A stretch of 24,167 nt of DNA. Origin: a virus. The notes beneath the pieces are model-generated. The model did not search any database. It was not told the DNA's origin and was given only the letters and a program-made list of their open reading frames with translations. Shown here in pieces: positions 5,567 through 13,978 of the stretch (position 1 is its first letter; each line of letters opens with the position of its first letter). The stretch spans positions 1-24,167 of the IMG/VR virus record IMGVR_UViG_3300023440_000027, one strand, 5' to 3'. The position numbers and the translations under genes were made by a program.

Positions 5567-7129
5567 ATGCCAGTTACATGTCAACTATGCAAGAAAGAAT
5601 TTGCAAGTCTAATTTCGTCATCTCATTTAAAACAGCATAATGTATCGTCTGCCGAATACAAAGATATTCATGGCAAGGATTCATTGGCTAGTGCCGAATA
5701 CCGTAATCGACGTAGCGAAAGCAACCGCGGTAAAAATAATCCTAATTATGGCAATGCTATGACTGCAAAAACAAAAGAGGCAATTAGCACAGCAAACAAG
5801 GGAAAGACCGCTTGGAATAAAGGGAAAGAATGCACCCAATCTATCAAAGAGGCAATTAGTACAGCAAACAAAGGAAAGACCGCATGGAACAAAGGAAAGA
5901 CACACACAGAAGAAACAAAAAATAAAATCCGCAATGCCCGAAAAAAACAAATTATATCGCCCGAAGCAGTTCGCAAAGCCATAACTACCAAAAGAAAAAA
6001 CGGCTACGATTTTGCTCCGTTTAAAGGGCATACGCATAGTAAAAAAAGTAAGCTACTTATTAGCAATGCCACAAAGAAAACAGCACAACAAAAATCTGAC
6101 AATGCGTTAGCAGAATATAAAACACGCATAGGCAAACACGGGTATTCTATAATTTCGTCATCTGCATCTCATGCATCTATACAGTGCAGCAAAGGTCACA
6201 TATCAGAATTTACCAGACAATACTTAACACAATCTAAATTTAAAGACACAATTTGCCCTATATGTTACCCAAGGGACATTGTAGTAAGCAAAGGTGAATT
6301 AGAGGTACGTGAGTTTGTATCATCAATTGTGCCTATTGTCGCAAACGCACGAGGTATTATTGCTCCTCTTGAATTAGATATTGTCATCCCGTCCTTGCAC
6401 CTTGCAATCGAATACAACGGATTATACTGGCACTCGGAAATACACAAAGAAAACAATTACCATAAAATTAAAATGGAAAAATGTAACGAAGCCGGCTATC
6501 GCTTAATACAAATTTTCGAAGACGAATGGCTTAATAATAAAGATATTGTAAAATCAAGGTTAGCAGCACTATTAGGACAAAATAAGGTGCTATATGCACG
6601 AAAAACAAAAATACAAGAAATATCAGCAAAAGAAGCAAATGTATTTCTTAATCAAAATCACTTACAAGGAGCAGGTAGATCAAATGTAGCATACGGGCTA
6701 TTCGACAATGACTCACTAGTTGCAGTAATGACATTTCTCAATTCAGATATTTCCAAAGGAGTTAATGGATGGGAACTAAACCGATTTGCATCACGTCTAC
6801 TTACTAATGTAGTAGGCGGAGCAAGCAAATTGCTATCAGCCTTTATAAAAAATAATAACCCCAGTGCCATAACTACATTTGCAGATCTTCGCTGGAGCAA
6901 TAATTCGTCTTTCTACACTACTATAGGCTTTAATTTTGTTCATAATTCTGTGCCCGGATATTGGTATGTATTTAATAACGACATAAAACGAATCCACCGG
7001 TATACACTTAGAAAACCGCAAGGCTGTACATTATCAGAAAAGGACCTAAGAAAACAAGAAGGATATTATCGCATATATGATTGCGGCAATGCAAAGTATA
7101 TATGGGAGTCGCAAAAAAGCCCCAATTAA
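5567..7129 (+). CDS. Free-standing homing endonuclease: NUMOD3 repeats plus Vsr-like (EDxHD) nuclease domain
   Basis: Domains in this 520-residue protein: a Cys2His2 zinc finger (C5, C8, H20, H24); three NUMOD3-type DNA-binding repeats (about 57-73, 79-96, 102-121, the last two with GKTAWNKGK) and a possible fourth near 150-166; a Cys cluster (C207, C230xxC233); a Vsr/PD-(D/E)xK-like nuclease core at about 243-322 with LELDIVIP, AIEYNG, YWHSE and IFEDEW; and a C-terminal alpha/beta domain at about 351-470 resembling acetyltransferase-like modules often joined to such nucleases. Homing endonucleases cut cognate sites lacking the gene, so repair copies it in. It lies opposite to and between sheath and tube genes, with its own late promoter. 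Lys/Asn-rich composition differs from the neighbours. Its stop codon lies in the loop of the sheath terminator. No intron or intein is seen in either flanking gene. Confidence 0.88.
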   Translation: MPVTCQLCKKEFASLISSSHLKQHNVSSAEYKDIHGKDSLASAEYRNRRSESNRGKNNPNYGNAMTAKTKEAISTANKGKTAWNKGKECTQSIKEAISTANKGKTAWNKGKTHTEETKNKIRNARKKQIISPEAVRKAITTKRKNGYDFAPFKGHTHSKKSKLLISNATKKTAQQKSDNALAEYKTRIGKHGYSIISSSASHASIQCSKGHISEFTRQYLTQSKFKDTICPICYPRDIVVSKGELEVREFVSSIVPIVANARGIIAPLELDIVIPSLHLAIEYNGLYWHSEIHKENNYHKIKMEKCNEAGYRLIQIFEDEWLNNKDIVKSRLAALLGQNKVLYARKTKIQEISAKEANVFLNQNHLQGAGRSNVAYGLFDNDSLVAVMTFLNSDISKGVNGWELNRFASRLLTNVVGGASKLLSAFIKNNNPSAITTFADLRWSNNSSFYTTIGFNFVHNSVPGYWYVFNNDIKRIHRYTLRKPQGCTLSEKDLRKQEGYYRIYDCGNAKYIWESQKSPN

Positions 7130-10370: not shown

Positions 10371-10416
10371 ATTCATATCTCCTAATGTGTATTACTGTCT
10401 AAGTATGTGATAGTAA

Positions 10417-10424
10417 TATTTATT
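10417..10424 (-). promoter_or_regulatory. Late-promoter-like box AATAAATA for the sheath gene
   Basis: AATAAATA on the minus strand, 46 nt before the preferred sheath start; AGGAG is close to the start. It is divergent from the plus-strand box of the HNH-like gene, with four GCCCTTT repeats between them. Confidence 0.7.
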
Positions 10425-10452
10425 ACAAAATGCACATCTTCGGTGATTAGCA

Positions 10453-10505
10453 GCCCTTTATTTTGCCCTTTATATAATTTTAGTTGCCCTTTTAGTTGCC
10501 CTTTT
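10453..10505. repeat. Four short direct repeats GCCCTTT(A/T) in a divergent promoter region
   Basis: Copies start at 10453, 10465, 10486 and 10498, with spacings of 12, 21 and 12 nt. The last two belong to a perfect 12-nt tandem AGTTGCCCTTTT (10482-10493 and 10494-10505). They lie between the minus-strand sheath box and the plus-strand HNH-like box. A protein-binding array or slippage product are both possible. Confidence 0.6.
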
Positions 10506-10507
10506 AT

Positions 10508-10515
10508 GATAAATA
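10508..10515 (+). promoter_or_regulatory. Late-promoter-like box GATAAATA, leaderless type, for the HNH-like gene
   Basis: GATAAATA is followed by ACTAT and then ATG at 10521. No Shine-Dalgarno site is present. The 5-nt spacing equals that at gp16 and at the 368-residue gene. Confidence 0.65.
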
Positions 10516-10520
10516 ACTAT

Positions 10521-10862
10521 ATGAGAAAGATATGCCCTGTGTGCAATACAAAACCCGTTGCAATCAACTATACAAAGAATAATATCGTGCACTATCGTAG
10601 CAAATGCGATGTGTGCACAAGGAAGAATAGAAAAATCGTGCCTAAATGGGTTAAGGTTGGATATAAGAAAAAAGCAGTATGTGAATGTTGCAATTTTAAA
10701 GCCGTATTCCCCGAACAACTAGATGTATGTTATCTAGATGGGGACCAAACGAACACTGCCCTTACAAATTTAAAGACAGTGTGTTTACTGTGCTACGTAC
10801 CTATTGTCACGTTGCATCTAGGATGGCAATTTAAGTCTAGGAAGATCGAAGCTGATATATAA
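10521..10862 (+). CDS. Small zinc-binding protein related to HNH endonucleases, catalytic His pair missing
   Basis: The protein from ATG 10521 has 113 residues. An in-frame ATG at 10506 and a GTG at 10407 lie upstream, but the promoter box at 10508-10515 would exclude both. Cys pairs are C5xxC8, C29xxC32, C54xxC57 and C88xxC91, consistent with two zinc sites of treble-clef type. The stretch LDVCYLDGDQTN, then NLKTVCLLC, aligns with the HNH pattern (V-H-H-I-D-G, then NL..LC..C), but the catalytic His-His is Cys-Tyr. From memory, similar proteins occur in marine T4-like phages. It may bind DNA without cutting, or be a decayed mobile endonuclease. The 3' end overlaps the end of the convergent dNMP kinase gene by 26 nt. 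Confidence 0.7.
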   Translation: MRKICPVCNTKPVAINYTKNNIVHYRSKCDVCTRKNRKIVPKWVKVGYKKKAVCECCNFKAVFPEQLDVCYLDGDQTNTALTNLKTVCLLCYVPIVTLHLGWQFKSRKIEADI

Positions 10863-11463
10863 GATCTGCTACTTTATTGTGTAAGTCATCTAGTGTGCCA
10901 TCATTTGATATTATATGATCAATATTAGATCCGACCCAGGCCCACTCACTAATATGAACGCCATACGCTTTCATTTTTTGAATTGCACCGGGATTCCCGG
11001 CATTAGCTGCAACAGCACTTGGGTACCACCTGGGCAACGGGCCACGTTGCACCCACCATATTTGTCCACCGGCATCTTTTACTGATGCAATTTCATTAGG
11101 GAACCGGCAGTCGCTAATAACAACATCCTGGTTCATTTTTTGTATTTTATTCTCAAGGGACGCAATCCATATATTATCATGGAAGCCATGTCTGCACACT
11201 TCTGTCCCCCACTGTTGCAATACCCAGCGCGGCGTTAGATCAGGTAGCTGTAATTTATTTGCCCACCATTCATCAACTGTTTCTCTCCATTCGCGGCCTT
11301 CTGGGCTTGTTCCTTCTAGTAACTGGCGGTCCCAATTAAATACATCGGCAACGGCATCTTTTAATGCTCCTGCATAACTCATTCTAGCAAAGCCATCTTG
11401 TACAAGACGGTCGGCAATTGTATCTTTTCCCGAGCTCATCCATCCCACAATTCCTATAATCAT
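10837..11463 (-). CDS. gp1: Deoxynucleoside monophosphate kinase, T4 gp1-like
   Basis: The 208-residue protein starts with a strand and P-loop, IIGIVGWMSSGKDTIADRL (residues 2-20), where K13-D14-T15 follows the phage dNMP kinase pattern GKDT. An LQQWGTEVCR segment and a VVISDCRFPNE segment fit the nucleotide-binding and lid region of T4 gp1 (241 residues). Such enzymes phosphorylate dNMPs for phage DNA synthesis. Its ATG overlaps the stop of the exonuclease gene (ATGA), indicating coupling. No terminator is visible after it, and its 3' end is antisense to the HNH-like gene. A nucleotide-metabolism gene next to neck genes is unusual relative to T4. Confidence 0.88.
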   Translation of the reverse strand: MIIGIVGWMSSGKDTIADRLVQDGFARMSYAGALKDAVADVFNWDRQLLEGTSPEGREWRETVDEWWANKLQLPDLTPRWVLQQWGTEVCRHGFHDNIWIASLENKIQKMNQDVVISDCRFPNEIASVKDAGGQIWWVQRGPLPRWYPSAVAANAGNPGAIQKMKAYGVHISEWAWVGSNIDHIISNDGTLDDLHNKVADLIYQLRSS

Positions 11464-11981
11464 TTAATTTTTGTTACCTTTAATTGTTTAATTGCATCCT
11501 GTAGCATTATAATTTGACGCTTGCAATCTTCTAATGCATGATGCGGTGCTTTAGGACTATTTAGATTTCCGCACAACGAATATACAGTGCGGCAATCTCG
11601 TACTTTAAAGAATTGCCACGGTAGTGTCATACCATAGCTTTTATACGCATGTTCAAGAATTGACATATCGTATGTCGGACCATTGGCCCAAACATGAGAT
11701 TTATTCCAGACAATTTTACTTAATTTTTCAAGTGCATCTTTAAGTGGGATTCTATTATCTGGGTGCAATGCTTCTTTACCTGCTTCTTTTTGTGTTCCCC
11801 ACCATTGTAGTGTTTCATTATTAATGTCGCGCCCTTCTTGCGATTCTGTATCAATGCGTGCATAAAAATGCTCTTCGGGTATAGTATCTGCAAACGGATC
11901 AAATACTTGAGCAGCGATTGTTAAAATCATTGCATCCGGACCTGTTGCCAGTCCTTCTATGTCTATCATTATTGCGCTCAT
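11460..11981 (-). CDS. DEDDh-type 3'-5' exonuclease (RNase T/Rv2179c-like)
   Basis: The 173-residue protein has the three exonuclease motifs: MIDIEGL with Asp7 and Glu9; HVWANGPTYDMSIL with Asp105; and HHALEDCKRQ with His147 or His148 and Asp152. The ETLQWWGTQKEA segment is typical of phage and bacterial Rv2179c-like exoribonuclease/exonuclease domains. These use two metal ions to remove 3' nucleotides; RNA or DNA substrate cannot be told from sequence. The start is fixed by AAGGA 6 nt upstream. That site lies inside the 3' arm of a long inverted repeat. The stop overlaps the dNMP kinase start by 4 nt (ATGA), so a shared role in nucleotide recycling is plausible. Confidence 0.88.
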   Translation of the reverse strand: MSAIMIDIEGLATGPDAMILTIAAQVFDPFADTIPEEHFYARIDTESQEGRDINNETLQWWGTQKEAGKEALHPDNRIPLKDALEKLSKIVWNKSHVWANGPTYDMSILEHAYKSYGMTLPWQFFKVRDCRTVYSLCGNLNSPKAPHHALEDCKRQIIMLQDAIKQLKVTKIK

Positions 11982-11983
11982 AA

Positions 11984-12035
11984 AAAATCCTTAGTGTCAT
12001 ATTTAATTACAATAATATAACATACTAAGGATTTT
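11984..12035 (-). promoter_or_regulatory. Inverted repeat masking the exonuclease ribosome-binding site
   Basis: Perfect 12-nt arms, AAAATCCTTAGT at 11984-11995 and ACTAAGGATTTT at 12024-12035, enclose a 28-nt AT-rich loop. In the minus-strand mRNA the gene-proximal arm contains AAGGA, the likely ribosome-binding site of the exonuclease, followed by six U and the AUG. The fold would hide the site. A weak terminator for gp13 is the alternative, since the U run also follows the stem. Confidence 0.6.
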
Positions 12036-12053
12036 GTCTAGTTAAACGGTAAA

Positions 12054-12812
12054 TTAGCCGATTATCATACCAAGCGGCATAGATCCGTCTACATACAATC
12101 GCAAATCTTCGATTAGCTGTGTAATTTCAACTGTGCCTTCATTTTTCATTTGTGCACCGTTAAGTGTTGTGCCCCCTTGCGGGCCTGCAATAGATGCAAA
12201 TTTTTCGCGTGCTTGTCCAATAATAGTTTTCGCAACTGCCAATGCATAATCTTTTACCCATTGGCCAGATTGCGGATTTTGTAATATCGTTTGCATCGGT
12301 TTATAATTATGGACATGCAGTGCAATAATTTCGCCCTCTGATTTGATTCTACGTATCAACGTTAATTTGTGTGTCGACGGATTAAATGTAAAATTAATAA
12401 AGCCGCCGAACATACGTGCAGTTAGTTCTTGGTAGCTTGCATATAATTCATAGCTTAATAGGCCGCCTGTTCTCCCTGCTTGCAGCAAATATGTATTAAG
12501 ATATCCTGCTTCAAATGGTTCAAATTCGTTTGCAGCACTATCTGACGATGTGCTACCAATAGTGCGTCTGTATATTGTCTGCACTGTTTGAATTTCGTCT
12601 GGTAATATATATTCGGCGGTGTTTGCTTCCAACTTTAAAAATGCATACGATTCTTCATATGCATTCTGCGAACGCTGACGATATACTGCAATTGCCGTTT
12701 CAACTGCTACCCGATAATGCGTCGGGTCTAATTCTAAATCAATAATATCGCCGCCTAAACGGGCATGTATATAATCAACTACGGTTTGCACTGCTTGCTC
12801 TTGCTCGGTCAT
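12054..12812 (-). CDS. gp13: Neck protein, T4 gp13-like
   Basis: The 252-residue protein resembles gp13 neck proteins of marine T4-like phages: a helical N-terminus (TVVDYIHARLGGDIIDLEL), an AVETAIAVYRQRSQNAYEES helix, a beta-rich middle (about residues 110-170), and a C-terminal segment WVKDYALAVAKTIIGQAREK followed by a Gly-rich loop (GPQGGTTLNG) and an EGTVEITQLIEDL helix. It is shorter than T4 gp13 (309). In T4, gp13 and gp14 close the filled head and form the tail-attachment site. Here it is on the opposite strand from gp14. It has its own late-promoter-like box and AGGAG 7 nt before the ATG. The identification rests on remembered family patterns. Confidence 0.75.
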   Translation of the reverse strand: MTEQEQAVQTVVDYIHARLGGDIIDLELDPTHYRVAVETAIAVYRQRSQNAYEESYAFLKLEANTAEYILPDEIQTVQTIYRRTIGSTSSDSAANEFEPFEAGYLNTYLLQAGRTGGLLSYELYASYQELTARMFGGFINFTFNPSTHKLTLIRRIKSEGEIIALHVHNYKPMQTILQNPQSGQWVKDYALAVAKTIIGQAREKFASIAGPQGGTTLNGAQMKNEGTVEITQLIEDLRLYVDGSMPLGMIIG

Positions 12813-12831
12813 AAACTTACTCCTGATATAT

Positions 12832-12839
12832 TATTTATC
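12832..12839 (-). promoter_or_regulatory. Late-promoter-like box GATAAATA for gp13
   Basis: GATAAATA on the minus strand ends 19 nt before the gp13 ATG; AGGAG lies between them at 12820-12824. It separates gp13 transcription from the upstream 371-residue gene. Confidence 0.7.
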
Positions 12840-12862
12840 GTAGCAGAAGTATATAAACATGA

Positions 12863-13978
12863 TTAATATGCATTTAAAATTATTGTATCTGCATTTAATC
12901 TACCTGTTAATTTAATTTCAATTGCTTTAATATTAGCCAGTGCCTTGCGAAGTTTTACCTTGCTCATTTTTTTAATTTCAGCTAACTGTTCTTTTGGTTT
13001 GCGTAATGTTTTTTGTATGCTTGTGCTTTCGTCGTATCCCACAATTGACATACCTTTTACAGTTAACGGTCCAGTCATATCGTCTGCTTTATAACAGCCT
13101 AGCTTACGTGTCTTAGTGTTATACACCCACAATGTAGTTGAATCAACAATCTTTGTTGGATTAATTGATACTAGTTTAAGATCATCATGCTGTTTTAAAT
13201 ATTTAAGTTTAGCAACAATTTTATCTTTGCTTCTTGGTTTAACTTTTCGCGTTGTTTTTCGTTGTGCTTTTTTAGATGCTGTGTAATGATCACATTCTTC
13301 AATTAAGTCGCTGTAGAACGCTATAAGACGTGTTATCTCTGCTGGTTTTATGTGAGCATAGCCCTCGTTTAACTGTTCGCAAGTTTTTGCTTTTACTTCT
13401 TGCAGTTCTTTTAGTTGGCGTGTATAATATTCAGAGATTTTAGGGGAGCTTGCCTGCGGTACTTCTTTAGATTGCAAGTATGATGCAATTTCACCTTTTG
13501 TATATTTTTCGCCGTCAATTACTTTATCTTCTATATGTGCAATATCTGTAAGAAAGCTATTCAATTGTATTGCAAGTCGGTCTTGAATTGTTAATACCGG
13601 TGCTTTAGGCTTACCGGTAGTATCTTCTTCTGGCTTTTCTGTTTTTCGTCCTAGTGCAATAGCTTGACGAAGCTTATCTTCGAACCAGGCGGTATGTTTT
13701 TCGCTTAAAGGTGCACCTTGCAATGCAAATTTTGCAACCGAGCATACTGTCATGCCTGTGTATTTTTCGCCTAGTTTTTTCCATTCAACTAATAGCTCCG
13801 GAGATATAGTTTTTATTGTTGATGCATACTGCGGTACTCGCTTCATTAAATCTTTTGTTGTATGCGCATAGTTATTATAATTTAGCACGTCTACTAGCTT
13901 GCGTTTATATTCAAGTGTACCTACTTCTTCGCCTGCATAAACTGGCTCTTTAGCAGTAAATGTTTTCTTTGCGGCCAT
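12863..13978 (-). CDS. Conserved Lys-rich protein of marine T4-like phages, function unknown
   Basis: The 371-residue protein is basic and mostly helical. Parts: a charged N-terminus; a helical region about residues 20-110; a linker (about 112-128) rich in Glu, Lys, Thr and Pro; a long coiled-coil-like stretch about 130-235; a very basic segment (KKAQRKTTRKVKPRSKDK, about 236-253); and a C-terminal domain (about 254-371) with the strand-rich VSINPTKIVDSTTLWVYNTK followed by SIQKTLRKPKEQL. From memory the C-terminal domain is well conserved in marine T4-like phages but unnamed. The basic patch suggests binding of DNA or RNA, or packaging with the genome, but this is inference. GGAGA lies 7-8 nt before the ATG. 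It shares a transcript with the 368-residue gene; I found no promoter box of its own. Confidence 0.75.
   Translation of the reverse strand: MAAKKTFTAKEPVYAGEEVGTLEYKRKLVDVLNYNNYAHTTKDLMKRVPQYASTIKTISPELLVEWKKLGEKYTGMTVCSVAKFALQGAPLSEKHTAWFEDKLRQAIALGRKTEKPEEDTTGKPKAPVLTIQDRLAIQLNSFLTDIAHIEDKVIDGEKYTKGEIASYLQSKEVPQASSPKISEYYTRQLKELQEVKAKTCEQLNEGYAHIKPAEITRLIAFYSDLIEECDHYTASKKAQRKTTRKVKPRSKDKIVAKLKYLKQHDDLKLVSINPTKIVDSTTLWVYNTKTRKLGCYKADDMTGPLTVKGMSIVGYDESTSIQKTLRKPKEQLAEIKKMSKVKLRKALANIKAIEIKLTGRLNADTIILNAY

Follow-up and report, generated by a model that had tools for sequence, protein, structure and literature searches.

A hairpin that encloses a promoter and covers the exonuclease start in a T4-like giant phage: a putative translation gate

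The 24,167-nt stretch of viral DNA analysed here (IMG/VR record IMGVR_UViG_3300023440_000027, positions 1 to 24,167; hereafter the window) comes from a T4-like giant phage, and the best cultured relatives of its gp13 neck protein and of its 1072-aa tail sheath are Atu_ph07, Phosso, and PA5oct. Between the neck protein gene and a gene for an exonuclease lies a long inverted repeat, and the ribosome-binding site of the exonuclease is part of it. The locus raises the question of what the hairpin does to translation of the exonuclease and how the gene would be expressed at all. The reading preferred here, held with a probability of about two in three, is that the element acts as a translation gate built around a promoter inside the hairpin.

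The locus and the hairpin in the window

The features of the locus are listed in Table 1. The exonuclease and kinase genes share an ATGA overlap at 11463-11460, and the gp13-like gene ends 72 nt before the exonuclease gene; the overlap and a gp13 stop shortly 5' of the hairpin had both been reported in a preliminary description made from the sequence alone, and both hold. Exonuclease relatives in the cultured phages of the collection are distant only (the best among the matches listed is below 40%), so a laboratory phage arranged in exactly this way was not found.

Table 1. Features of the exonuclease locus and of the hairpin in the window.
Feature	Position	Strand	Description or basis
Deoxynucleoside monophosphate kinase (T4 gp1-like)	10837..11463	-	phrog_139, PF21448
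Exonuclease gene	11460..11981	-	173 aa, Rv2179c-like 3'-5' exoribonuclease domain (DEDD type); PF16473 E 4e-34, phrog_255 E 1e-47
3' arm ACTAAGGATTTT, includes Shine-Dalgarno (SD) sequence	11984..11995	-	Exact sequence and fold
SD AAGGA of exonuclease	11988..11992	-	Sequence; pairing probabilities
Inner 8-bp stem with 10-nt loop	11996..12021 (12021-12014 / 12003-11996)	-	MFE structure; one G.U pair
Late-like TTAAATA, in loop	12000..12006	-	Ends 18 nt before ATG; atypical
Sigma70-like promoter	12012..12040	-	-35 TAGACA 12040-12035, 17-nt spacer, -10 TATTAT 12017-12012; 10/12 matches
5' arm AAAATCCTTAGT	12024..12035	-	Exact sequence and fold; within the -35/-10 spacer
gp13-like neck / head-tail adaptor gene, putative source of read-through mRNA	12054..12812	-	phrog_211
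Late-type motif ATAAATA of gp13	12832..12838	-	Ends 19 nt before gp13 ATG

The minus strand from 12040 reads TAGACAAAATCCTTAGTATGTTATATTATTGTAATTAAATATGACACTAAGGATTTTTTATGAGC. The perfect 12-nt arms that had been described at a spacing of 28 nt were confirmed by exact sequence, as was the AAGGA of the exonuclease in the gene-proximal arm. The 28 nt between them, described as a loop, are partly closed by the inner stem. When loops of 3-60 nt are allowed, no other perfect 12-nt inverted repeat occurs in the window, and dinucleotide shuffles gave a mean of 0.13 such repeats per shuffle, with at least one in 20 of 200. Folding of the minus-strand leader, proposed earlier as a check, gave an MFE of -17.3 kcal/mol at 37 C for the 55-nt element (z -6.4, with 0 of 200 shuffles equally stable) and a z of -4.1 when flanks were included; the stem, which had been called weak and A-U rich, is thus AU-rich but stable. 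With an E cutoff of 1, the Rfam 15 covariance models matched nothing in 11500-12500, and a scan of viral contigs for ATCCTTAGT..ACTAAGGAT returned 12 matches.

In read-through RNA from gp13, the SD was predicted to be paired with a probability of 1.00, with the exonuclease ranking first of 21 folded window genes in pairing of the SD region. For RNA that starts at 12005, the SD pairing probability was 0.26, which leaves the SD mostly free, and the AUG was still paired with downstream sequence in the short transcript (P 0.71-0.98). The proposal that pairing would hide the exonuclease ribosome-binding site is therefore well supported by folding, and start sequestration at the exonuclease recurs in relatives.

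A predicted sigma70-like promoter and the late-like TTAAATA lie between the arms, and both had been missed by the preliminary description. Transcription from the promoter would start near 12003-12006, about 7 nt past the -10 box, and because the 5' arm falls within the -35/-10 spacer, such transcripts would lack it. Taken alone, the promoter match in the window is no better than chance (the scan gave 78 promoter-like sites vs 76 expected); the position of its TAGACA promoter is that of the conserved TAGACT promoter in the relatives described below.

Several further genes of the window were recorded. A 520-aa ORF with NUMOD3 motifs (5567-7129, plus strand), likely a free-standing homing endonuclease, runs opposite to the tail tube and sheath genes that flank it. 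Between the sheath and kinase genes, and likewise opposite to them in direction, lies a small cysteine-rich ORF (10407-10862, plus strand); it probably starts at about 10521, a few nt after a late-type motif, and it had no Pfam match. A NUDIX hydrolase gene (PF00293; 17744-18202, plus strand) is found amid structural genes.

Promoter and start-covering hairpin in relatives

Relatives of the exonuclease were gathered from viral contigs and gave a set of 82 distinct leaders. In 63 of the 82 loci the gene immediately upstream, in the same orientation, is gp13, which in most loci ends about 45 nt before the exonuclease gene; a late-type motif within 60 nt of gp13 was present in 51 of 52 relatives, usually at a distance of 17-22 nt from the ATG. 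Read-through into the exonuclease is therefore expected, since gp13 adjoins it upstream, on the same strand, with a late motif of its own. The motif ATAAATA resembles the T4 late promoter and is found shortly 5' of many window genes; in seven long related contigs, the 45 nt preceding genes contained it 11-25 times in gene orientation vs 1-4 times as its reverse complement, which was used as the control because the reversed motif reads the same backwards and is invalid for this purpose.

At the exonuclease itself, a -10 box (TATAAT, TATACT, and near variants) ends 5-7 nt 5' of the ATG, mostly 5 or 6, in 79 of the 82 leaders. It is preceded by an extended TG (TGN) in 76 of these 79 and separated from the -35 box, most commonly TAGACT, by a 17-nt spacer in 72. 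With the -10 box so close to the ATG, the exonuclease mRNA of the relatives is probably leaderless. The window and its nearest relative, L002, are exceptions to this spacing, both with SD leaders. Some loci have another gene upstream, and there the exonuclease usually retains both its promoter and its hairpin.

In the relatives an inverted repeat encloses the -10 box and places its 3' arm over the AUG, typically as CATGCTA-TACTCT-TAGCATG. The mean AUG pairing probability was 0.88, with values above 0.5 in 92%, and in a longer context it was 0.86 for read-through vs 0.34 for leaderless RNA (n = 79). The AUG is also covered in some phages whose stems are quite unlike this one and lie in another register (GTCTGCTATAC/GTATGGCAGAC, TTGTGCTATAC/GTATGGCACAA, or AGTCCTGCT/AGCA-U-GGACT). 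One locus held out from pattern finding, L293, has the same element at its start (CATGCTAT-ACTC-ATAGCATG). Judged from sequence, dozens of related phages keep the layout of a hairpin with an enclosed promoter.

Covariation of the arms had been suggested earlier as a check and was borne out in part. Folding was weakened when 5' and 3' halves were swapped between loci (z -7.3, 0/5000). After clustering by protein identity, the result was 0/5000 at every threshold to 80% and 54/5000 at 70%, and the effect was lost at 65% (6 sequences); within the ATGAG group, with its nearly invariant stem, swapping had no effect. In one fixed register, 84% of cells were paired vs 22-50% in slid versions, and two-sided changes numbered 11 vs 6.0 in shuffles, so that covariation there is consistent but modest. 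L002 has no 12-bp stem and does not keep the arms, and conservation of the primary sequence of both arms was rejected on this ground. Pairing of its SD is weaker, at P 0.43-0.70 according to which stretch is folded, and is hardly lower in its own transcript (0.47-0.54).

Leaderless-type starts are not confined to the exonuclease. Each of ten long related contigs (G001-G010) has 2-16 genes at which the -10 box of a sigma70-type promoter ends some 6 nt short of the ATG, and a few of the other leaderless genes also have start-covering hairpins (337 aa in G001, 72 aa and 88 aa in G002, 205 aa in G005). A general rule that all leaderless genes have such hairpins was rejected, with a mean AUG pairing probability of 0.58 for co-directional leaderless genes vs 0.50 for ordinary genes. 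The swap test was passed by a set of 27 other leaderless genes taken together (z -3.7, 2/5000), and results were mixed as to a stronger effect beside co-directional upstream genes. Kinase genes directly after gp13, with the exonuclease absent, had no consistent start-covering hairpin.

The proposed gate and the alternatives

Under the preferred reading, long mRNAs started at the gp13 late-type promoter (at about 12832) would extend into the exonuclease gene, with both arms included. The hairpin would form just past the point where the gp13 ribosome exits and would cover the exonuclease SD, or the AUG in most relatives, so that read-through mRNA would give little exonuclease, while mRNAs from the enclosed sigma70-type promoter would lack the 5' arm and be translatable. 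Expression of the exonuclease would then depend on a promoter of its own, probably an early one, and the gene would be silent on the late structural mRNA; the kinase would share this fate only if translational coupling links it to the exonuclease. With the promoter inside the hairpin and its transcripts free of the 5' arm, the simplest switch would be the choice of transcription start. The likely timing is early on and late off, the reverse of that of lysozyme. The hairpin, its pairing with the SD, and the recurrence in relatives of a promoter together with a hairpin over the start are seen in the sequences and their predicted folds; use of the promoter, its timing, leaderless translation in the relatives, and the size of the effect on translation are what we infer from them.

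The timing would be the opposite if the enclosed promoter were late, as at T4 gene e, with the TTAAATA in the loop as its motif and the exonuclease blocked early and made late. The distance of this motif from the ATG is near that usual for the gp13 promoters of the relatives, and strong promoter-spanning hairpins were found at 27 of 147 SD-led late-motif genes vs 11.6 expected (0/5000 permutations). However, the base before TAAATA in the 51 gp13 late motifs of the relatives was A in 32, C in 13, G in 6, and T in none, which makes the window motif atypical; nearly every other exonuclease leader, that of L002 included, has a promoter of sigma70 type and lacks a late motif, and a gp55-type late promoter (TATAAATA) enclosed by the hairpin, a defining feature of the T4 gene e-type gate, was found neither at the window exonuclease nor at that of the relatives. 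A late gate is thus unlikely, if the strongest of the alternatives. Somewhat less probable still is an intrinsic terminator of the gp13 mRNA with no translational role. The preliminary description had allowed for a terminator, and in the window the layout of A-tract, stable stem, and U-tract (UUUUUU, 11987-11982) agrees with one. Against it, the 12-bp stem has only 3-4 G-C pairs, and the site is absent from the list of a terminator scan, which takes loops of 3-8 only. The hairpins of the relatives lie over the AUG and have no U-run (L002 has GAUUUG at that place), so a terminator cannot explain the conserved feature. Termination at the window hairpin may occur in addition to the proposed gate, with the same outcome.

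The repeat could also be a DNA element, either a dyad operator or a TRTG-type extended -10 preference that happens to pair with GCATG. The TG before the -10 box and the Y-R before it could reflect promoter preference, and G.U wobble, tried as proof of an RNA structure, proved weak, since most one-sided wobble changes are also plain transitions and so fail to separate RNA from DNA. On the other side, what is constant across loci is that the ribosome entry signal pairs with sequence 5' of the predicted transcription start, whereas the repeat has no one centre: loop lengths and registers vary, some stems enter the coding region or have a bulge, and in the window the symmetric arms are shifted so that the 3' arm lies on the SD farther downstream. 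Constant pairing with varied geometry is what a block on read-through RNA would be expected to show, unlike a fixed-geometry operator, which suggests an RNA-level rather than a DNA-level element. The positive half-swap test and the scarcity of start pairing beyond background at other leaderless sigma70 genes of related contigs (mean P 0.58 vs 0.50) also argue against a DNA element, which is about as improbable as a terminator. Least probable is the opening of the hairpin by heat, by a protein, or by ribosomes translating gp13, as the preliminary description had proposed. In its favour, the stem is rich in A-U pairs and ribosomes finish gp13 shortly 5' of it, but at -17.3 kcal/mol the element is stable at 37 C, it is kept in several relatives with another gene upstream, and no trigger is needed when a promoter lies between the arms and its transcripts lack the 5' arm.

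Known systems and late genes of the group

The preliminary description held that control of this kind would be unusual, which needs qualifying, since T4 genes e, soc, and 49 and I-TevI are documented to work in the same way. In T4, start-sequestering hairpins form on mRNA started upstream of genes e (lysozyme), soc, and 49, which have a late promoter beside the gene (PMC3014915). As in those genes, the SD and/or the AUG of the present locus lies in the 3' arm and the predicted promoter over the 5' part, so that its transcripts would lack the 5' arm, and the folding energies by the same procedure were similar, at -22.5 kcal/mol for the window, -18.8 for T4 e, and -19.5 for T4 49. Unlike in those genes, the enclosed promoter appears to be sigma70-type (early) within a late operon, most relatives appear leaderless with the AUG hidden, and the timing would be reversed. 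The homing endonuclease genes I-TevI, I-TevII, I-TevIII, segB, and Aeh1 mobE also have hairpins that hide the ribosome-binding site on read-through mRNA (PMC2988022), and it is freed, as proposed here, by use of a promoter in or beside the hairpin; those are mobile endonucleases with late or middle promoters, whereas here an exonuclease lies next to gp13 in a late operon.

For the leaderless starts, the comparison is with Deinococcus-Thermus, where the -10 region of leaderless genes adjoins the ORF (PMC12340547). The relatives of the locus are similar, with the -10 box a few nt from the ATG, but a start-covering hairpin is not mentioned for those genes in the abstract of that study (PMC12340547), and the window exonuclease differs from them in having an SD leader. 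No description of a start-covering hairpin around a leaderless-type -10 box was found in the open-access literature. Restriction-modification systems of the PvuII and other C-controlled types also have a predicted hairpin that occludes a ribosome-binding site between overlapping operon genes, in a model that has no enclosed promoter (PMC2997769). The hairpins predicted for pvuIIR (-4.6 kcal/mol) had no measurable effect when tested (PMC2997769), and this null result may be taken as a warning for predicted hairpins of this kind.

The odds are about even for the wider proposal that, across a large group of T4-like giant phages, hairpins with internal promoters gate translation according to the promoter from which an mRNA started, the most novel form being one in which the gene is leaderless and early, lies in a late operon, and has its AUG covered, so that its timing mirrors that of T4 lysozyme. 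If this is true, an early enzyme gene can sit in a late structural operon and remain unexpressed late with no protein involved, a mechanism of a few T4 genes applies also to a large group of uncultured phages and to genes that lack a leader, and start-covering hairpins with an enclosed promoter become a searchable signature.

Among SD-led late genes, those with a strong promoter-spanning hairpin include window gp13 and TTCCTGAGTTATGGTAAATATATCATAAACTCAGGAA (G010). Genome-wide mean SD pairing at late promoters did not differ from that of swapped controls (0.356 vs 0.344), so the average late gene is not special and a gate would concern a subset only; in the swap test, native pairs were somewhat in excess for background SD genes too (z -3.4), and the claim is therefore limited to the tail of strong hairpins.

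The gp13 late motif often lies between the arms of an SD-covering hairpin, as in the window (12812-12870; ACTTCTG..GATAAATA..CAGGAGT), L021 (GTTTCCT..ATAAATA..AGGAAAC), L052 (AATCCTTGC-TAAATACA-GCAAGGATT), L002, L003, L027, and L061. A different hairpin, 3' of the late motif and with the SD in its loop, was seen in the gp13 leaders L029, L032, L038, L065, and L069; its stems are apparently compensating (for example, TAGGGAC-AGGA-GTCCCTA), and it would form in gp13's own late mRNA. At 2907, 15153 (minus strand), 15173 (plus strand), and 10510 (plus strand) of the window, a late-type TAAATA stops about 5-7 nt short of an ATG, which suggests leaderless late starts.
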